From Haloarcula rubra (lineage in GTDB: Archaea > Halobacteriota > Halobacteria > Halobacteriales > Haloarculaceae), in NCBI RefSeq assembly GCF_019599465.1, contig NZ_RKLR01000001.1, forward strand, positions 744,001 to 808,000: a stretch of 64,000 nt of DNA, read 5' to 3'. A model generated the notes under the pieces. The model made no database searches and had not been told where the DNA came from. It worked only from the letters and a program-made list of their open reading frames with translations. The translations under genes and the position numbers were made by a program. This document shows positions 5,388 to 12,776 of the stretch, one piece after another (position 1 is the first letter of the stretch; the number at the start of each line of letters is the position of its first letter).

Positions 5388-5663
5388 ATGGAAATCGAGT
5401 TGCGCTTCTTCGCGAACTTCCGCGCGACCGTCGGGCAGAAGATACTCCACCGGGAGTTCGACGACGGCGCTCGGGCGGGCGACGTCCTCCGGGAACTGAG
5501 CGATGAGTACCCCGAGATGGACCTCTTCGAGTCGGAGGGGACGCTCCGGCAGTACCTGACCATCCTGCGGAACGGGCAGGACATCGAGCATCTGGACGGC
5601 CTCGAGACGACCGTCGAGGACGGCGACGAACTCAGCGTCTTCCCGCCCGTCGCCGGCGGCTAA
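5388..5663 (+). CDS. samp3: Ubiquitin-like small archaeal modifier, SAMP3/MoaD-like
   Basis: 91 residues with a beta-grasp fold pattern and the C-terminal FPPVAGG tail. The terminal Gly-Gly is adenylated by an E1-like enzyme (UbaA) and is used either as a sulphur carrier for molybdopterin synthesis or for isopeptide conjugation to proteins. The start MEIELRFFANFRATVGQK and the tail resemble Haloferax SAMP3, whose conjugation to MoaE controls molybdopterin synthase. The assignment to SAMP3 rather than SAMP1 rests on recalled similarity. The stop overlaps the stop of the convergent next gene by two bases. Its position near AOR and Mo/W cofactor genes fits a cofactor role. Confidence 0.85.
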   Translation: MEIELRFFANFRATVGQKILHREFDDGARAGDVLRELSDEYPEMDLFESEGTLRQYLTILRNGQDIEHLDGLETTVEDGDELSVFPPVAGG

Positions 5664-6055
5664 CAGCAGAAGATGAACGGGTAGAGGAGGCCGATTCGGT
5701 CCTCGCCGTCGAGTTCGGTGTCCAGTCCGTCGAGATGTTCGTTGAACTGACCGTCGACGGTCACGCGGGCGTAACACCGCGTCTGGTCGCCCTCGGGGTT
5801 CTTCTTCCACGTCCCGGGCAGTGACTCCAGTTCCGGTGCCCACCCCTCGGTCGCGGCGTCGGACTCCGTCTCGGCGATGAGGAGGTCGGCCACGTCGTAG
5901 CGGTCACAGAACGCTTCGAGGAATGCCCGAAGCGTGGTGCCCTCGAAGGTAAACCTCATGTGTGGTTCGCCGACGGCGTCTCTGACGTGACCCGTACACC
6001 GGACCTCGACGGTCGTCTGTGCTCGCTGGGCCGTCTCGTGGGTCGTCCCGCTCAT
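5660..6055 (-). CDS. Beta-grasp (MoaD/ThiS-like) protein ending in Cys-Cys
   Basis: 131 residues. The pattern of strands (TTVEVRCTGHVRDAVGEP, then TLRAFLEAFCDRY) and the closing segment NEHLDGLDTELDGEDRIGLLYPF resemble MoaD/SAMP proteins. In particular EHLDGL and DRIGLLYPF mirror EHLDGL and DELSVFPP of the facing samp3 gene. However, the chain ends in FIFCC instead of Gly-Gly, so E1 activation by the usual route is not possible. A middle insertion of about 30 residues contains WKKNPEGDQ. ATG 6055 is chosen over an upstream start (6100) because homology-like sequence begins after it. It may be a sulphur or metal carrier, or a regulator, of SAMP/MoaD chemistry; this is inference. Confidence 0.7.
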   Translation of the reverse strand: MSGTTHETAQRAQTTVEVRCTGHVRDAVGEPHMRFTFEGTTLRAFLEAFCDRYDVADLLIAETESDAATEGWAPELESLPGTWKKNPEGDQTRCYARVTVDGQFNEHLDGLDTELDGEDRIGLLYPFIFCC

Positions 6056-6146
6056 GGGTTCGTCTAGCGTGAGCGACACCAAAACGGTGCGGGCGAACAC
6101 GTTCGGGTGGGACCGAATTTAATGCCGACCGGCACGAGACACCGGT

Positions 6147-6515
6147 ATGGAAGACATCGAACTGGGGATTCCGGCGGGTATCGTCGACTCCTTGCCAGCC
6201 GACGGCGAGGACGCCAAACAGGACATCCAGCGGGCCGTCGCCGGGTGGGAAGGCGACATCAACGCGGCGCTCGACAGCGAGGACCCCGCGAGCGCCGTCG
6301 TCGACCTCATCGAGTACTTCGAGGACCGGTGGGAGGCCTACGACGAGTACGTCATCGAGTTGCGGGCGTGGGGCCAGTCGCCCATCTACGCGATGGTGTG
6401 GCGCGACCTCACGGCCTCGGTCATCCAGCAGATATACGACCACGCCGACCTCGCAGACCGCATCAGCCGCGAGCGGAACGCCCGCATCGTCGACGACGGC
6501 ATCCGATCCGGATGA
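6147..6515 (+). CDS. Conserved hypothetical protein, 122 aa
   Basis: A helical, acidic, soluble protein (MEDIELGIPAGIVDSLP...) with a Trp/Tyr-rich centre (YFEDRWEAYDEYVIELRAW) and a basic-acidic end. No known motif, signal or membrane segment is visible. It starts about 92 bases from the divergent beta-grasp gene and is followed by the DUF1952-like gene on the same strand, with a promoter-like AAGTTTTGCC between them. I do not recognise the family. Confidence 0.6.
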   Translation: MEDIELGIPAGIVDSLPADGEDAKQDIQRAVAGWEGDINAALDSEDPASAVVDLIEYFEDRWEAYDEYVIELRAWGQSPIYAMVWRDLTASVIQQIYDHADLADRISRERNARIVDDGIRSG

Positions 6516-6568
6516 CCGCGCACACACGCCCCACGAAGTTTTGCCGTGGAGGTGCCTAACGACGCCCA

Positions 6569-6823
6569 ATGCGACGAGAACGGAGCTTCCGGGGTATCTC
6601 GATGCGACTGGCCCGCCACTATCTGGAGGGACTCGGCGGCGAGGAACGCGACGAGACCACCGTCGTCGCCGACGACTGGAGGGCCGAGCTGTCGGCCGAG
6701 AAGGTCGGTATCGGGCCGACCATCGAACTGACCGAGATTACCGTCGTCTTCGAGGGCGACGAGGAGACGCTGGACCCGCTGATAGAGCAGTTCGCCCAGA
6801 AGGCGATGCGGGCCGGCGGGTAG
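6569..6823 (+). CDS. Small protein resembling the MoaD-related C-terminal domain, ends AGG
   Basis: 84 residues. The segment GPTIELTEITVVFEGDEETLDPLIEQFAQKAMRAGG resembles the small domain that follows MoaD in MoaD-related bacterial proteins (DUF1952-type), here as a separate polypeptide. The last residues are Ala-Gly-Gly, so a free C-terminal diglycine is present as in SAMPs. ATG 6569 fits a leaderless mRNA with an AT-rich box about 28 bases upstream; ATG 6602 is the alternative. It is two bases upstream of the next gene and so probably co-transcribed with it. Family assignment is tentative, from memory of the motif. Confidence 0.6.
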   Translation: MRRERSFRGISMRLARHYLEGLGGEERDETTVVADDWRAELSAEKVGIGPTIELTEITVVFEGDEETLDPLIEQFAQKAMRAGG

Positions 6824-6825
6824 CG

Positions 6826-7188
6826 ATGAGCGACCACCCCATCGAGGCGCAACTCGTCCTCCTCGCGGGGACCCACGCGAGCGTCCCGCTGGACCGTCTC
6901 CCCGGCTTACTGGAGGGAGCCCAGCGATACGTCGCGGACCATCGCACGGAGTACGAGCGGCGCTACGAGCGTATCGAGGGGGCCAGAGACGCCGACTACT
7001 TCTGCGTCGAGACGGGGTACTGGGCGTCGGTCGGCGAAGAACTCGGGTACGGCCGACGGGAGTGGGAAGCGGTGCGGCGCGCCCACGAAGCGCAGTTCGA
7101 GCGGGACGGCCGGCGACTCGACCGGGAGGGGGAGTTCGAGTCCACGCTCGAACTCCGCGAAGTCGTGGCCGTCGACGCTACACGCTGA
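6826..7188 (+). CDS. Hypothetical protein, 120 aa
   Basis: It begins 2 bases after the stop of the AGG-ending small gene, so the two form an operon. The product is soluble, acidic and helix-rich with many Arg/Glu (EYERRYERIEGARDADYF, GYGRREWEAVRRAHEAQFERDGRRLD). Its single Cys is in YFCVETGYW. No family is recognised. The 3' end overlaps the convergent gene at 7178-7540 by 11 bases. Confidence 0.6.
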   Translation: MSDHPIEAQLVLLAGTHASVPLDRLPGLLEGAQRYVADHRTEYERRYERIEGARDADYFCVETGYWASVGEELGYGRREWEAVRRAHEAQFERDGRRLDREGEFESTLELREVVAVDATR

Positions 7189-7540
7189 GCGTGTCCAGCA
7201 CCTTCTCGGAGAAGTCGGTCTGCGAGAGGTCGCCGTTGTGGAGGCGGTCGAACCACTCCGCGTCGACGTACCAGTAGCCGCGGACCTCACCCTCCAGGTC
7301 GTGGACGGTGGCCTCCACGTCCGCCCCCGACCAGTCGTCGGCGTGGAGGTCACGCAGGACGTTGATGACCCGGCCGATCTCCGAGTGGGGGACCGACCCC
7401 TGCTCGGCCGCGATGGACTCGTAGGTGACCGCGTAGGTGTTCTCGTCCTCGCGCTCTTCGAACGCCTGTACGTAGACGCCGTGGCTCGTCAATCGGGACT
7501 CCACCTGAAACTCGAAGTCGTCGAACTCGTCTTTGTGCAT
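7178..7540 (-). CDS. Hypothetical protein, 120 aa, downstream of AOR
   Basis: An acidic soluble protein (MHKDEFDDFEFQVESRLTSHG...) with a patterned middle, YAVTYESIAAEQGSVPHSEIGRVI, and aromatic residues near the end (YWYVDAEWFDRLH). It lies 74 bases downstream of the AOR gene on the same strand and may be co-transcribed with it. A role tied to the oxidoreductase is only a positional guess. No catalytic motif is seen. Confidence 0.6.
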   Translation of the reverse strand: MHKDEFDDFEFQVESRLTSHGVYVQAFEEREDENTYAVTYESIAAEQGSVPHSEIGRVINVLRDLHADDWSGADVEATVHDLEGEVRGYWYVDAEWFDRLHNGDLSQTDFSEKVLDTLSV

Positions 7541-7614: not shown

Positions 7615-9558
7615 CTAGTCGTCGCTCGGTGCCGCCGCGCCGCCGGAACTGACGCCGGTACCCGGTCCGATGTCGATACCCAGTTCGTCCAGTTTCTCGT
7701 CTGGGACGACGCCGTCCTCCCAGTCCCGGACCTCGTAGTACTCGTCTTTGAGTTTGTCCAGTTCGGCGAGTTCACCCTCCGAACCACCCTGTGCGGGGAT
7801 GGCGTTCTCGTCGCCCTCGACGAAACGTCCCGGCAGGTCGTCGTCGCTCCCGTCGAAGCCCACGAGGTTGTTGTAGTAGCGCTCGAGGTTGTAGATGCGC
7901 TCGCCGGCCTCCATCAGGTCCTCCTCGCTGACGTCCAGTCCGGTCATGCCGTTGTACTGGAGGACGTACTCCTCGATGCCCTCCGCGAAGGCGTTGAACT
8001 TGCAGATGTCGAAGGAGTCGCTGATGGCGTGGAGGTCCTGGAAGGTGGCACACAGTTCGCCCTTCCCCTCCCACTCGCGCGGGTCGACCTTCTCCGGGAC
8101 GCCGAGAATCTCGGCGGCCGGGGTGTAGCCGCGCAGGTGGCAGGCCCCGCGGTTCGAGGTGGCGTAGCCGATGGCCATCCCCTTCATACAGCGGGGGTCG
8201 TATGCCGCCATCGTCTGGCCCTTCACGGCCAGCGAGTTCTCGGCAGCGTCGAACTCCTCGGCGAGGTGGCTCGGGCCCTCGGCGAGGTGGTCCGCGAGTT
8301 CGCCGTCGCGGTGGGCGATGGCGTCGATCATGTCGATCATCGTGTCGGCGTCGCCCCAGTCGAGGCCGTCGCCGAGGTCGTCGAGTTTGCCCTGTTCGGT
8401 CATCTCCATGGTCATCGCCATGGTGTTACCCACGTCGATGGTGTCGACGCCGACGTCGTTACACCGCTCGAGCATCAGGGCCACCTTGTCGCGTTCGACG
8501 TGGCCGGAGTTCGGGCCCAGCGCCCACGCGGACTCGTACTCGTAGGACTCCGTGCGGACGTTCATCTCCTCGCCCTTGTGCATCGCCTGCACCTCGACTT
8601 CCTTCTTGCAGGCGACCGGACAGGAGTGACAGGTGGGTTCGTCGACGAGGATGTTCTCGCGGACGTTCTCGCCGGATATCTCCTCGGAGTCGATGATGCG
8701 CTCGCCGTCGCCCTCCGACTCGGACATCGACCGGGTCGAGGAGTACTTCGCGTTCTTCGTCGGCAGGCCGTCTATCTCCTCGGTGAGGTTCATCAGGACG
8801 TTGGTGCCGTACAGCGAGAGGCCGCCCTCGTTCGGCCCCGTGATGTCGGACTCCTGGATGACCTGCATCGCCTGTTTGTGGCCCTCCTGGAACGTCTCCT
8901 TGTCCTTCGGTTTCGGCATCCGCGTCGGTGACTTGACGACGACGGCTTTCAGGTTCTTGTTGCCCATCACCGCGCCGGTGCCGCCCCGGCCCGACGCCCG
9001 GTCGTCCTCGTTGACGATGCAGGCGTACTTCACCTCGTTCTCGCCGGCGGGCCCGATGGCCATCGCCGAGAGGTTCTTGCCGTAGGCGCCCTCCACCTCG
9101 TCCTCTATCTCCTCCAACGTGTCGTGGATGCCCCAGCCCCACATGTGCGAGGCGTCACGCAGTTCGACTTCCCCGTCCTCGACGACGGCGTAGACGGGGT
9201 GGTCGGCCTGTCCCTCGAACAGGAGGCCGTCGAACCCGGCCCACTTCAGGCGCGCGCCGGACCAGCCACCGTGGTGGGAGTCGGTCACCTGCCCCTGGAT
9301 GGGTGACTTCGTACAGATGGCGATACGACCGCTCATCGTGGTCTGGGTCCCCGTTAGCGGGCCGTTCATGAACGCCAGCAGGTTGTCCGGGCCGAGTGGG
9401 TCGACGTCCGGCCCCTGGTCGAAGACGTACTTCACGCCGAGGCCGCGCGCGCCGATGTACTTCTTCGCGTCCTCCTCGTCGATACCTTCGTAGGCGATAT
9501 CTCCCTCGCCGAGGTCGATTCTTGCTACGTGGTCCTGAAAGCCGCCGAGGTCAGTCAT
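7615..9558 (-). CDS. aor: Tungsten-type aldehyde:ferredoxin oxidoreductase
   Basis: 647 residues, about the usual AOR length (600-650). AOR enzymes oxidise aldehydes to acids with ferredoxin as acceptor, using a tungsto-bispterin and a [4Fe-4S] cluster. The cluster ligands are intact: C310, C313 and C317 (CHSCPVAC) and C519 (SFDICKF). Pterin-binding signatures are present, including ARGLGVKYVFD near the start, GRGGTGAVMGNKNLKAVV at 190-208 and YATSNRGACHLRGYTP at 465-480. The Gly/Ala/Ser-rich tail is dispensable-looking. ATG 9558 is chosen because the upstream in-frame start adds a Cys-rich stretch unlike the family. The wtp transporter lies immediately upstream on the same strand, which supports tungsten use. 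Confidence 0.93.
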   Translation of the reverse strand: MTDLGGFQDHVARIDLGEGDIAYEGIDEEDAKKYIGARGLGVKYVFDQGPDVDPLGPDNLLAFMNGPLTGTQTTMSGRIAICTKSPIQGQVTDSHHGGWSGARLKWAGFDGLLFEGQADHPVYAVVEDGEVELRDASHMWGWGIHDTLEEIEDEVEGAYGKNLSAMAIGPAGENEVKYACIVNEDDRASGRGGTGAVMGNKNLKAVVVKSPTRMPKPKDKETFQEGHKQAMQVIQESDITGPNEGGLSLYGTNVLMNLTEEIDGLPTKNAKYSSTRSMSESEGDGERIIDSEEISGENVRENILVDEPTCHSCPVACKKEVEVQAMHKGEEMNVRTESYEYESAWALGPNSGHVERDKVALMLERCNDVGVDTIDVGNTMAMTMEMTEQGKLDDLGDGLDWGDADTMIDMIDAIAHRDGELADHLAEGPSHLAEEFDAAENSLAVKGQTMAAYDPRCMKGMAIGYATSNRGACHLRGYTPAAEILGVPEKVDPREWEGKGELCATFQDLHAISDSFDICKFNAFAEGIEEYVLQYNGMTGLDVSEEDLMEAGERIYNLERYYNNLVGFDGSDDDLPGRFVEGDENAIPAQGGSEGELAELDKLKDEYYEVRDWEDGVVPDEKLDELGIDIGPGTGVSSGGAAAPSDD

Positions 9559-9669: not shown

Positions 9670-10650
9670 TTACTCCTCGGTAGTCCCCGGCGAACAGGGG
9701 TGGACGCGGCCGGGGTCGACGGACACCCAGACGTCGGCCCCGACGGCCGGCGGGTCGTCGGCGAAGGCGTCGACGGTCCGCCCGTCCAGCGACAGGACGA
9801 CGCGGTTGGTGGCGTCCTCGCGGACGACGCGTTCGACGGTCGCCTCGAAGTCGCCGCTCGCCCCGTCGAGTCGGACGGCCTCCGGCCGGAACGCGACGTA
9901 CTCGTCGGTGGCCCCGTCGACGGCGTCGCGGAGCGAGGGGACGGCCGACAGCGGGACCGCGTTCGCGCCGGTGAACTCGGCGACGACCGGCGAGGACGGC
10001 CGCTCGAACACCGTCTCGGGCGTCCCGGTCTGAACCACCTGCCCGTCCCGCATCACGGCGATACGGTCGGCGATGGCGCGGGCGGTCGTCCGGTTGTGCG
10101 TGACGTAGACGGCGGTCACGTCCGCGAGCACGTCGGCCAAATCGTCACGGAGAGACTGGCGAGTCGGCACGTCGAGCGCCGCGAGCGGTTCGTCGAGTAG
10201 CATGACCGACGGTCGAACGGCGAGCGCTCGGGCCAGCGCCACGCGCTGTTTCTCGCCGCCCGAGAGCGTCGGCGGGTAGCGGTCGGCGAGGTGGTCGACG
10301 CCGAGTTCCGCGAGCAGCGTCTCGGCGTCCCGCGTCTCGTCGTGGTACTTCGTGCCGTACTCGACGTTCTCGGTGACCGAGAGGTGCGGGAACAGCGCGT
10401 AGTCCTGGAAGACGAACCCGAAGTCACGGTCTTCCGGTGGGACGGTGTCGAGTCGCCGGCCGTCGGACTCGACGAACCCGTCGTGGTCGTGAAAGCCCGC
10501 GATGGTCTCCAGCAGGAGGGTCTTCCCGCTGCCGCTGGGACCGAGAATCACGAGGGTCTCGCCCGCGTCGACGTCGACGCCGGCGTGGACGGTGAAGGCG
10601 TCGGCCCCGTCGGCGGTGAACGTGGCGCTCACGTCCGCTCGCAGGTCCAT
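9670..10650 (-). CDS. wtpC: Tungstate/molybdate ABC transporter ATP-binding protein
   Basis: 326 residues. Walker A GPSGSGKT is at 37-44, followed by the Q-loop (FVFQDYALFPH), signature LSGGEKQR, Walker B VMLLDEPLAALD and the switch His (THNRTTA). The last 100 residues form a TOBE-like oxyanion-sensing domain (AFRPEAVRLDG). ATG 10650 overlaps the permease stop by one base (TGATG), so the two genes are translationally coupled. The long open frame upstream of this ATG is only the shadow of the permease. It powers import of tungstate or molybdate with the two following entries. Confidence 0.9.
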   Translation of the reverse strand: MDLRADVSATFTADGADAFTVHAGVDVDAGETLVILGPSGSGKTLLLETIAGFHDHDGFVESDGRRLDTVPPEDRDFGFVFQDYALFPHLSVTENVEYGTKYHDETRDAETLLAELGVDHLADRYPPTLSGGEKQRVALARALAVRPSVMLLDEPLAALDVPTRQSLRDDLADVLADVTAVYVTHNRTTARAIADRIAVMRDGQVVQTGTPETVFERPSSPVVAEFTGANAVPLSAVPSLRDAVDGATDEYVAFRPEAVRLDGASGDFEATVERVVREDATNRVVLSLDGRTVDAFADDPPAVGADVWVSVDPGRVHPCSPGTTEE

Positions 10651-11636
10651 CAGGGCATCCCCCCGGTGACGCTGTCGTCGTCGGTCAGATAGCGCACGAC
10701 GAGGAAGATGAGCGCCGAGACGCCCAGCAGGAGGAAGGCGACGGCGCCGCTCTCGCCGAGGCCGCCCTGCAGGTAAGTGTTGTAGACGAACACCGGCGCG
10801 TGCTGGGCGGTCACTCGCTCGCCGGCGGGGGCGTAGAAGAACTGCACGGAGTAGGCGACGACGGCGACGGCGCCGAACTCCGAGACGGCCCGCGCCCACG
10901 CGAGGACGCCGCCGGTAATCATGCCCCGGACCGCGAGCGGTGCGGTGACCCGGCGGAACGTCTCCCACTGGTTCGCGCCGTGGACGCGCGAGGCGTACGA
11001 CAGTCTGTCGTCGATGGTCTCGAACGACTCTCTGGTGGTGTTGACGGCGTAGGGCGCGGCGACGAACGTCATCGCCAGCACCATCCCGACCATCGACCCG
11101 AGGACCGAAATCTGTGGGAAGGCCCCGCCCTGCCCGAAGCCGAAGAGGATGATGATGCCCGCGACGGAGTGGGGGACGACCAGCGGGAGGTCGACCAGAC
11201 TCTCGACGAACTGCTGGCCGGGGAACCCCTCGGCGAGCAGGTGCGCCAGCGGCACGCCCAGCAGGAGGCTCACCAGTGCCGCCAGCAGCGGTCCGTAGAC
11301 GCCCAGATACAGCACTCGGTGGACGCCCGGGTCGAGCGCCTTCTCGGCGACCAGCGAGGGGGACTGCCGGGCGACGAACATGAACAGCGGGAGGCCCAGC
11401 GCGACCACGAGGAGACTGCCGACGGTGGCCGTCGCCACGGTGAACGGGGACCCGTCGAGGACGTAGGCCGTGACGGCGACGCTCCCGACCATGAAGTACG
11501 CGTACCACGTCGGCCGGCCGTAGGAGTACGCGGCGGCGAACGCGGCCACCTGCACGGCGATGAACGTCGCGACGAGAGACCGGCGGCTGACCGCCTCGCG
11601 TCCGAACAGCGTGTCGGTGTCAGTTCCTGTCGCCAT
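10650..11636 (-). CDS. wtpB: Tungstate/molybdate ABC transporter permease
   Basis: 328 residues with about seven or more hydrophobic helices. The cytoplasmic EAA-type coupling loop is recognisable at about residues 218-250 (ANQWETFRRVTAPLAVRGMITG). The region GVPLAHLLAE with VVPHSVAGIIILFGFG is typical of molybdate/tungstate/sulphate permeases. It sits between the substrate-binding lipoprotein (48-base gap) and the ATPase (one-base overlap) in the order binding protein-permease-ATPase. Confidence 0.9.
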   Translation of the reverse strand: MATGTDTDTLFGREAVSRRSLVATFIAVQVAAFAAAYSYGRPTWYAYFMVGSVAVTAYVLDGSPFTVATATVGSLLVVALGLPLFMFVARQSPSLVAEKALDPGVHRVLYLGVYGPLLAALVSLLLGVPLAHLLAEGFPGQQFVESLVDLPLVVPHSVAGIIILFGFGQGGAFPQISVLGSMVGMVLAMTFVAAPYAVNTTRESFETIDDRLSYASRVHGANQWETFRRVTAPLAVRGMITGGVLAWARAVSEFGAVAVVAYSVQFFYAPAGERVTAQHAPVFVYNTYLQGGLGESGAVAFLLLGVSALIFLVVRYLTDDDSVTGGMP

Positions 11637-11684
11637 ATGTCGTGGATGGGTGACTGCTGGCCGGTCCCGTCGGCGTGACGGACA

Positions 11685-12776
11685 CTATAGCTCCAGTGGG
11701 CCGAGTGCGCTCTGGGCGCTGGCGACCTCCATCACGCGGTCGGGGACTGCGTCCTCTCCGCTCTCTGGGACGACGATAGGGTCGACCGGCACGAGACCCA
11801 TGTCTTCGAGGACGGTCCGGCCGGGGTCGGTCGCGAAGTACTCGACCCACTGGGCACCGCGCCCGGGCGCCTCCGCGACGCCCGGGACGGTGATACCGTA
11901 GGCGATGGGCGCGCCAGTGAACGTCCCGCTCCCCGTCTCGACCTCGGCCTTCGCGTAGTGCTGGGCGTAGTCGCTGGATGCCTGCGAGAGGTCGACCTCC
12001 GGTTGGAGGTCGATGAACGGCTTGCCCGACGTGCTGGAGATGGACTGGTAGTACATCACGTAGTCCAGTTCGCCGCTCTCCAGTTGGCCCTCCAGATTCG
12101 TCTCGGTCCCCGTCGGCACCACCGAGTTGTCCCGGAGCGCCTGATAGGTCGACTCGTCGTACAGTCGCTCGCCGTCGAAGGACTCTTTCCCGAGTTGCTG
12201 GGTCATCACCGCACGGTACCCGCCGGGGTCGACCGCTGGGTCCGAGTGGCCGATGGTGACGTCGTCGCGTGTCAGCACCTCCCACCAGTTGTCCTTGGAG
12301 ATGTCGCCGGCGCCCGGCGAGTCCTCGCGGTACTGTATCGACATGGAGTTGGTGGTGAAGATGGCGTACCAGTTCCCGTAGTCCGGCAGGATGCGGTTGC
12401 GGATGAGCCGGAAGTCCGAGACGCCCAGCACGTCGGCCCGCCGGCCCTGCTGGGTTATCTTCTGCGTCGAGGCGACCGACCCCTTCGCCTCGCGGTTCAC
12501 GTCGACGCCGAACTCCTCCTCGAACTGGGGTTCCGCCTCGCCGAACGGCGGGGCGAGCGACCCGGCGTGGAAGATGGTCATCGAGTCGGCCATCCCGCCG
12601 CCGGACGTGGTGGTCGTCGTGCCGCCGTCCCCGCCACCGCTCTCGCCGTCGGTGCCACCGCTCCCGTCGCTCCCGCCGCCGTCGCCGCCGTCCCCGCTAC
12701 ACCCTGCGAGGCCGAGGGCAACTGTCGCGCCGACGCTCCCGAGGAACGCGCGTCTACTGCGTCGCTGTTTCGACAT
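11685..12776 (-). CDS. wtpA: Tungstate/molybdate-binding lipoprotein
   Basis: 363 residues. A twin-arginine start (RRSRRAFLG) and lipobox ending at C26 (GLAGC) are followed by a Gly/Ser/Thr-rich linker to about residue 65. The mature domain begins TIFHAGSLAPPF and continues REAKGSVASTQKITQQGRRADVLGVSDF, the signature of the WtpA/ModA-like archaeal family that captures tungstate and molybdate outside the cell. WtpA of Pyrococcus binds tungstate with very high affinity; preference here is inferred from the neighbouring tungsten AOR. It is the first gene of the wtpABC operon. Confidence 0.92.
   Translation of the reverse strand: MSKQRRSRRAFLGSVGATVALGLAGCSGDGGDGGGSDGSGGTDGESGGGDGGTTTTTSGGGMADSMTIFHAGSLAPPFGEAEPQFEEEFGVDVNREAKGSVASTQKITQQGRRADVLGVSDFRLIRNRILPDYGNWYAIFTTNSMSIQYREDSPGAGDISKDNWWEVLTRDDVTIGHSDPAVDPGGYRAVMTQQLGKESFDGERLYDESTYQALRDNSVVPTGTETNLEGQLESGELDYVMYYQSISSTSGKPFIDLQPEVDLSQASSDYAQHYAKAEVETGSGTFTGAPIAYGITVPGVAEAPGRGAQWVEYFATDPGRTVLEDMGLVPVDPIVVPESGEDAVPDRVMEVASAQSALGPLEL

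Follow-up and report, generated by a model that had tools for sequence, protein, structure and literature searches.

In Halobacteria, the genes for a SAMP3-type ubiquitin-like protein (P1) and for a small TBP-like-fold protein with a Gly-Gly end (P4) were found in exactly those genomes which code for an ortholog of the tungsten enzyme aldehyde ferredoxin oxidoreductase (AOR). P1 and P4 probably make up a dedicated module for the tungsten cofactor of this enzyme, the biochemical steps of which we infer throughout. This reading builds on the observed co-occurrence of SAMP3, P4 and AOR, on the linkage and fusion of P1 and P4, on their conserved tails, and on the homology of P4 to the Thermus DUF1952 domain, which is encoded beside AOR. 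If the reading is true, it gives SAMP3 a job, as a sulfur carrier for the tungsten cofactor.

Gene content and co-occurrence with AOR

The window, i.e. the whole stretch of 64,000 nucleotides of Haloarcula rubra DNA that was analysed, contains the genes listed in Table 1. P1 and P2 are arranged tail to tail with overlapping stop codons, and the AOR frame ends at 7615 on the minus strand, 792 bases (~0.8 kb) from the end of P4, the enzyme being read towards the small genes. The AOR protein matches both AFOR Pfam domains; its start codon is not settled, and the reading frame extends to 9591. The preliminary description had placed three small genes at positions 5388-6823, with tails AGG, Cys-Cys and AGG and at 0.8 kb from AOR. 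All of these reading frames are in place; a fourth small gene, P3, was not part of its count.

Table 1. Genes of the cluster, with positions in the window
Feature	Position	Strand	Description
P1, SAMP3-type MoaD/ubiquitin-like protein	5388..5663	+	91 aa; C-terminus FPPVAGG
P2, divergent beta-grasp protein	5660..6055	-	131 aa; C-terminus YPFIFCC replacing FPPVAGG
P3, protein without family assignment	6147..6515	+	122 aa; between P2 and P4; usual SAMP3/P4 neighbour
P4, DUF1952/TBP-like-fold protein	6569..6823	+	84 aa; C-terminus KAMRAGG
p120, protein without family assignment	6826..7188	+	120 aa; directly 3' of P4
P5, protein without family assignment	7178..7540	-	120 aa; between p120 and AOR
AOR, tungsten aldehyde ferredoxin oxidoreductase	7615..9552	-	645 residues; PF01314 384 bits, PF02730 242 bits
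WtpABC-like tungstate ABC transporter genes	9670..12776	-	adjoin AOR
WtpABC-like ATPase	9670-10647	-	NCBIfam match
WtpABC-like permease	10650-11636	-	NCBIfam match
WtpABC-like substrate-binding protein	11685-12776	-	NCBIfam match

Among the ubiquitin-like modifiers of archaea, SAMP3 is one of the three that serve as models. Judged by its sequence, P1 belongs to the SAMP3/MoaD family of ubiquitin-like sulfur carriers: it matches Pfam ThiS with 57.7 bits (cut-off 22.5) and the NCBIfam models SAMP1 with 95 bits (cut-off 60) and moaD_arch with 74.9 bits (cut-off 49.5). NCBIfam itself thus labels the protein SAMP1, and the assignment to SAMP3 rests on a tree and on the best PDB sequence match, 2m19, which scores 91.2 bits compared to 39 bits for the SAMP1 chains. 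We take 2m19 to be SAMP3 of Haloferax volcanii (HVO_2177); it is the closest solved sequence to P1, and both proteins end in VAGG. In the tree of 93 MoaD-type proteins, 19 SAMP1 proteins are split from SAMP3 with a support of 100/99 and P1 stands among the SAMP3 rows, while SAMP3 as a single group against Deinococcota receives a support of just 61/78. The split backs, for the rows sampled, the bit-score cut by which SAMP3 was called (at least 70 bits, chosen after seeing the scores, among the matches listed).

P4, SAMP3 and the AOR ortholog each occur in 91 of the 116 Halobacteria genomes; the three sets are identical, and the same 25 genomes are without all of them. The ortholog was defined as the top cluster of AOR matches, with at least 982 bits, a cut likewise chosen after seeing the scores and among the matches listed, and the 25 genomes free of SAMP3 and P4 give no AOR-family match whatever at E 1e-30. 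The five genera with mixed content (g21, g23, g26, g32 and g6) agree fully, for which permutation within genera gives a chance of 2.4e-4. MoaE is present as one copy each in 115 of the 116 genomes, including 24 of the 25 which lack AOR, and the pattern of SAMP3, P4 and AOR is therefore not that of molybdopterin as such. The link to tungstopterin and AOR that had been proposed from the window is supported by these identical sets of 91 genomes.

P1 and P4 constitute a conserved unit, of which AOR is a frequent neighbour. In 90 of the 91 genomes SAMP3 and P4 share a strand and are no more than 10 kb apart (in the remaining one P4 is on another contig), and SAMP3 genes adjoin P4 throughout Halobacteria. 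AOR is found within 10 kb of P4 in 62 of the 91 genomes, from 8 families, with opposite strands in 61 of the 62; about 0.6 such genomes would be expected by chance for genomes of 3.5 Mb. The other 29 genomes have the two genes far apart or on different contigs. P2 is found in 77 of the 116 genomes, all 77 of them AOR-positive, after removal of a seventy-eighth (G298, a match of 36% across 60 residues that contains a stop) and of weak second matches in G308, G314 and G318. Only 15 of these 77 genomes have P2 at 2 kb or less from SAMP3; it is usually far from P1, and is thus tied to the cluster through shared genomes rather than position. The suggestion that the trio of P1, P2 and P4 is conserved beside AOR was not borne out: P2 being usually elsewhere, only 15 of the 91 AOR-positive genomes have all four genes within 10 kb, and the trio was rejected as a unit.

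P4 and its relatives in two domains of life

The P4 protein ends in RAGG in 62 of 65 haloarchaeal loci, in RSGG in two and in RAPG in one, such that the terminal Gly-Gly is kept in 64 of 65; these loci are the best matches of genome searches, and close relatives are over-represented among them. The preliminary description had tied its argument to conservation of the Gly-Gly among homologues of the 84-residue protein, and it withstands this check. The RAPG end belongs to a second P4 copy in an incomplete genome (L026); second P4-like matches are also seen in genomes G151, G249, G281 and G314. Across a 42-sequence alignment of Halobacteria and Deinococcota, only Y18, R81 and the last residue, G84, are invariant, and L19, G23 and G83 are nearly so. 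The R-x-G-G motif is hence the most conserved part of the P4/DUF1952 family across two domains of life.

Although Pfam misses it, P4 is related to DUF1952 (PF09189), which forms the C-terminal part of the Thermus thermophilus MoaD-related protein 1v8c (MoaD + DUF1952). The structural model of P4 (pLDDT 93.9) has the order E-H-E-E-E-E-H, with the Gly-Gly directly behind the last helix (H65-82). A beta-grasp fold was not found in this model, and we call the arrangement TBP-like, the name given to it in structural classification and also the term of PMC2948915; the sole significant Foldseek match behind the label is 1v8c itself (E 1.5e-5, probability 1.00; nothing else below 0.001). The alignment from which the model was built held Thermus rows, and homology was therefore tested independently with one profile for Halobacteria and another for Deinococcota, between which hhalign gives a probability of 95 and E 3.8e-8 over 80 of 84 columns, tail to tail. 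Pfam PF09189 gives no match to P4 itself, matches one of 16 family members (E 0.0037) and exceeds its cut-off in none of 60 genomes of the phylum. In the A1 search against the PDB, 1v8c ranked under three unrelated chains at E 0.67, and this search was not used alone. The earlier designation of the 84-residue protein as DUF1952-like is clearly upheld by both profile and fold comparison, even with Pfam silent. The relatives in Deinococcota rule out that P4 is unique to Halobacteria; a further match outside Halobacteria, in G074 (E 0.005, with an internal stop), was left out of the counts.

The two proteins can also be encoded as one. A SAMP3 end was located with the motif FPP[VI][AS]GG in 52 loci, the other 13 of the 65 P4 loci being without one within 1.5 kb flanks. 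The protein stops at VAGG in 32 of the 52, carries other residues behind VAGG in 11, and is fused in frame to P4 in nine, L102 among them, in the order VAGG, linker, RAGG. The Gly-Gly of SAMP3 is accordingly kept in 52 of 52 loci, 20 of them with residues behind it, in a count for which Gly-Gly was part of the search term. Thermus 1v8c shows the same order of MoaD and then DUF1952, with one VAGG inside the chain and a Gly-Gly at its end. The similarity of P4 to the C-terminal domain of 1v8c, in profile and fold, extends to the last residue, at ~22-25% identity; the two parts are fused in Thermus and separate in the window.

The MoaD-DUF1952 gene lies directly 3' of AOR in all 11 named Thermus loci, where the enzyme is ~52% identical to that of the window; in a twelfth locus, from a Thermaceae MAG, AOR is absent from the contig and present elsewhere in the genome. 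Loci L115-L118 of the same scan hold a MoaD-like part only and were left out. Among 111 Deinococcota genomes, DUF1952 is found in 38, the AOR ortholog in 41 (at least 400 bits, set after seeing the scores, with G410 included on split fragments) and both in 36. The two genes are within 2 kb of each other in 25 of these 36, and on different contigs in 10 of the other 11. A DUF1952 match without AOR occurs in G365 and G447; the latter (27.9 bits) was treated as spurious, its frame probably being that of a LacI-type regulator. The AOR ortholog occurs without a PF09189 match in G362, G364, G409, G414 and G417. Of these, G417 has a divergent P4-like gene (L162) ending in LMRAGG, which is missed by the PF09189 model, while the Thermus genomes G409 and G414 (L158 and L159) have lost DUF1952 and kept a MoaD ending a few residues behind VAGG. 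P4 is thus dispensable there, and the two genomes provide a natural test of this dispensability. Split forms also occur in Deinococcota (L152 and L153), in which a VAGG stop is followed by a separate protein ending in LRGGG, and two further proteins (L150 and L151) end in GGA.

Some of these features are already known. The excerpts consulted of PMC2948915 (Makarova and Koonin 2010) describe a haloarchaeal TBP-like-fold family with a GG end, arCOG06308, encoded beside a MoaD-like Ubl and two small proteins, for which Ubl-like activity was suggested, as well as a haloarchaeal beta-grasp family with a CC end, arCOG00539; they also remark on AOR next to MoaD genes. P4 and P2 are equated with these two families by description, yet arCOG06308 is called unique to Halobacteria in those excerpts, whereas P4 has relatives in Deinococcota. 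AOR-linked MoaD genes, such as Thermococcus TK1065, were proposed to serve the tungsten cofactor by Iyer, Burroughs and Aravind (2006; excerpts of PMC1779556). There, as in the window, MoaD adjoins AOR; Thermus is listed, the tungsten row does not include Halobacteria, and the excerpts do not mention a second GG protein. The GG tail, the SAMP neighbourhood and the CC tail (2010) and the AOR-linked MoaD (2006) are therefore prior knowledge; new, as far as searched, are the exact co-occurrence with AOR, the fusions of SAMP3 with P4 and the identity with DUF1952, which spans two domains of life. Within the open-licence literature, no paper naming DUF1952 was found, only PMC2948915 was found for arCOG06308, and no paper was found on a tie between SAMP3 and AOR in haloarchaea, the one paper met being on Thermococcus.

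Possible roles of SAMP3 and P4

In the module that we consider probable, SAMP3 would be a MoaD-type sulfur carrier, the terminal Gly of which is adenylated and thiocarboxylated by the E1-like enzyme of the cell, presumably UbaA. Its sulfur would pass to the single, shared MoaE and from there into the tungstopterin dithiolene. One MoaE would thus be served by two MoaD-type carriers, the rival carrier SAMP1 supplying the molybdenum enzymes and SAMP3 forming the AOR branch. DMSO reductase, a molybdenum enzyme, is reported not to require SAMP3, which fits such a tungsten branch. Where SAMP3 has residues behind its Gly-Gly, or is fused to P4, a protease would have to free the Gly-Gly beforehand. 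P4, as the TBP-like-fold partner made beside SAMP3 or fused to it, may give the pair its specificity, either in the docking of SAMP3/MoaE to apo-AOR or in another tungsten-specific step, and its R-x-Gly-Gly end may be handled by the same Ubl machinery or act as a substrate mimic. The tungstate transporter genes adjoining AOR are consistent with a dedicated module, as is, by analogy, the precedent of Thermococcus, whose Ubls, according to excerpts of PMC11323500, take part in Wco synthesis, one of them as the sole Ubl to activate a given tungstoenzyme. Against it stand the distance of more than 10 kb between P4 and AOR in 29 of the 91 genomes and the loss of DUF1952 in two Thermus genomes with AOR; in the predicted structure, moreover, the Gly-Gly of P4 follows a helix directly, unlike the long flexible tail of ubiquitin.

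Other readings of the same data carry less weight. It is unlikely that SAMP3 is mainly a protein modifier which switches MoaE off or re-routes the output of Mo/W cofactor, with P4 as a second conjugated modifier. The conserved Gly-Gly of P4 would suit this role, as would the need of 20 of the 52 SAMP3 proteins for cleavage behind Gly-Gly, which a JAMM protease would allow, and the attachment of SAMP3 to MoaE in Haloferax is stated in the excerpts consulted of PMC4443979, where SAMP3 is presented as a modifier that takes no direct part in MPT synthesis, on the basis of a molybdenum enzyme and not of AOR. Yet a protein that did nothing but regulate MoaE should be of use in any genome with MoaE, whereas none of the 25 genomes without AOR has SAMP3 and 24 of them do have MoaE, and a sulfur carrier may undergo conjugation as a side reaction when demand is low. 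The gene is here tied to a tungsten enzyme. The preliminary description had cited the modification of MoaE in proposing that the cluster couples modifier-based regulation to tungstopterin supply; the Haloferax result is no evidence for regulation at this cluster, and the phyletic data point to a sulfur-carrier role at least as much. Very unlikely, in our judgement, is that the co-occurrence is due only to the gain and loss of a whole AOR gene island, on which SAMP3 and P4 travel as passengers. A mobile cluster of AOR and MoaD genes was suggested by Iyer and others (PMC1779556, in the excerpts consulted), in keeping with the closeness of P4 to AOR in 62 of 91 genomes; in 29 genomes, however, the two are far apart or on other contigs, yet no genome has one without the other, and the rarely linked P2 likewise occurs in AOR genomes only (77 of 77).

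A further alternative competes only with the part assigned to the P4 tail. The Gly-Gly may not be a Ubl tail at all, and may instead be a short C-terminal cap or a peptide binding in a pocket of MoaE, UbaA or AOR, P4 being a helper in the folding of AOR or in insertion; this is quite possible, if somewhat short of an even chance. The fold of P4 is not that of ubiquitin, its model ends in a helix with Gly-Gly immediately behind, and two Deinococcota proteins end in GGA and one haloarchaeal copy in APG. A mere cap is harder to reconcile with R-x-G-G as the most conserved part of a family spanning two domains of life, and with the product of the partner gene, a sulfur carrier with its own Gly-Gly that is sometimes joined to P4 in one polypeptide. 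That the Gly-Gly of P4 is activated by E1, as the preliminary description had suggested it may be, appears to us rather doubtful. Decidedly unlikely is the fuller version, in which P4/DUF1952, with a fold that is TBP-like and not that of ubiquitin, would be another Gly-Gly carrier, activated by the E1 of SAMP3; the fused forms of Thermus and several haloarchaea would then hold two activatable Gly-Gly ends released in turn, and the pair could deliver both sulfurs of one tungstopterin dithiolene.

With SAMP3 and AOR coinciding exactly across 116 genomes, a sulfur-carrier role of SAMP3 for the tungsten cofactor becomes directly and cheaply testable. A Gly-Gly partner of another fold, common to archaea and Thermus, would also be a candidate for what connects a Ubl with its particular tungstoenzyme, a link sought in PMC11323500, according to its excerpts.

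Other genes of the cluster

P2 has the sequence of a beta-grasp, ThiS/MoaD-like protein: 21 of 22 family members match ThiS at E 0.1 or better (best 1.9e-7), with P2 itself under the cut-off. Its fold model, with a pLDDT of 65, is too weak for structural claims. Cys20, in the motif CTGHVR, and the penultimate Cys130 are invariant in the 22 aligned sequences. The final position is held mostly by C, otherwise by L or V, and in a larger set also by F, in L039. The Cys-Cys end noted earlier therefore holds for P2 and, in its penultimate position, for the family, and not in the last residue. No family member has a terminal Gly-Gly (the ends are FCC, YCC, FCL, YCV or YCF), and P2 thus cannot work as a normal sulfur carrier; that it bears sulfur or a metal on its Cys residues is only a guess.

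The best NCBIfam matches of the permease and the substrate-binding protein are WtpB (188 bits) and WtpA (233 bits), and WtpC is the second-ranked match of the ATPase; all are under the curated cut-offs. Genes for uptake (WtpABC-like), for the enzyme (AOR) and for the sulfur carrier adjoin one another in the window. P3 and P5 could not be placed in known Pfam families: P3 has no match, and P5 has a sub-threshold match to DUF7686 only. P120 matches no family in Pfam or NCBIfam. P5 is kept beside AOR within the genus, P3 beside SAMP3/P4 in many loci and p120 adjacent to P4 in most of the loci shown; P3 and p120 are perhaps the "two small uncharacterized proteins" mentioned in the excerpts of PMC2948915.
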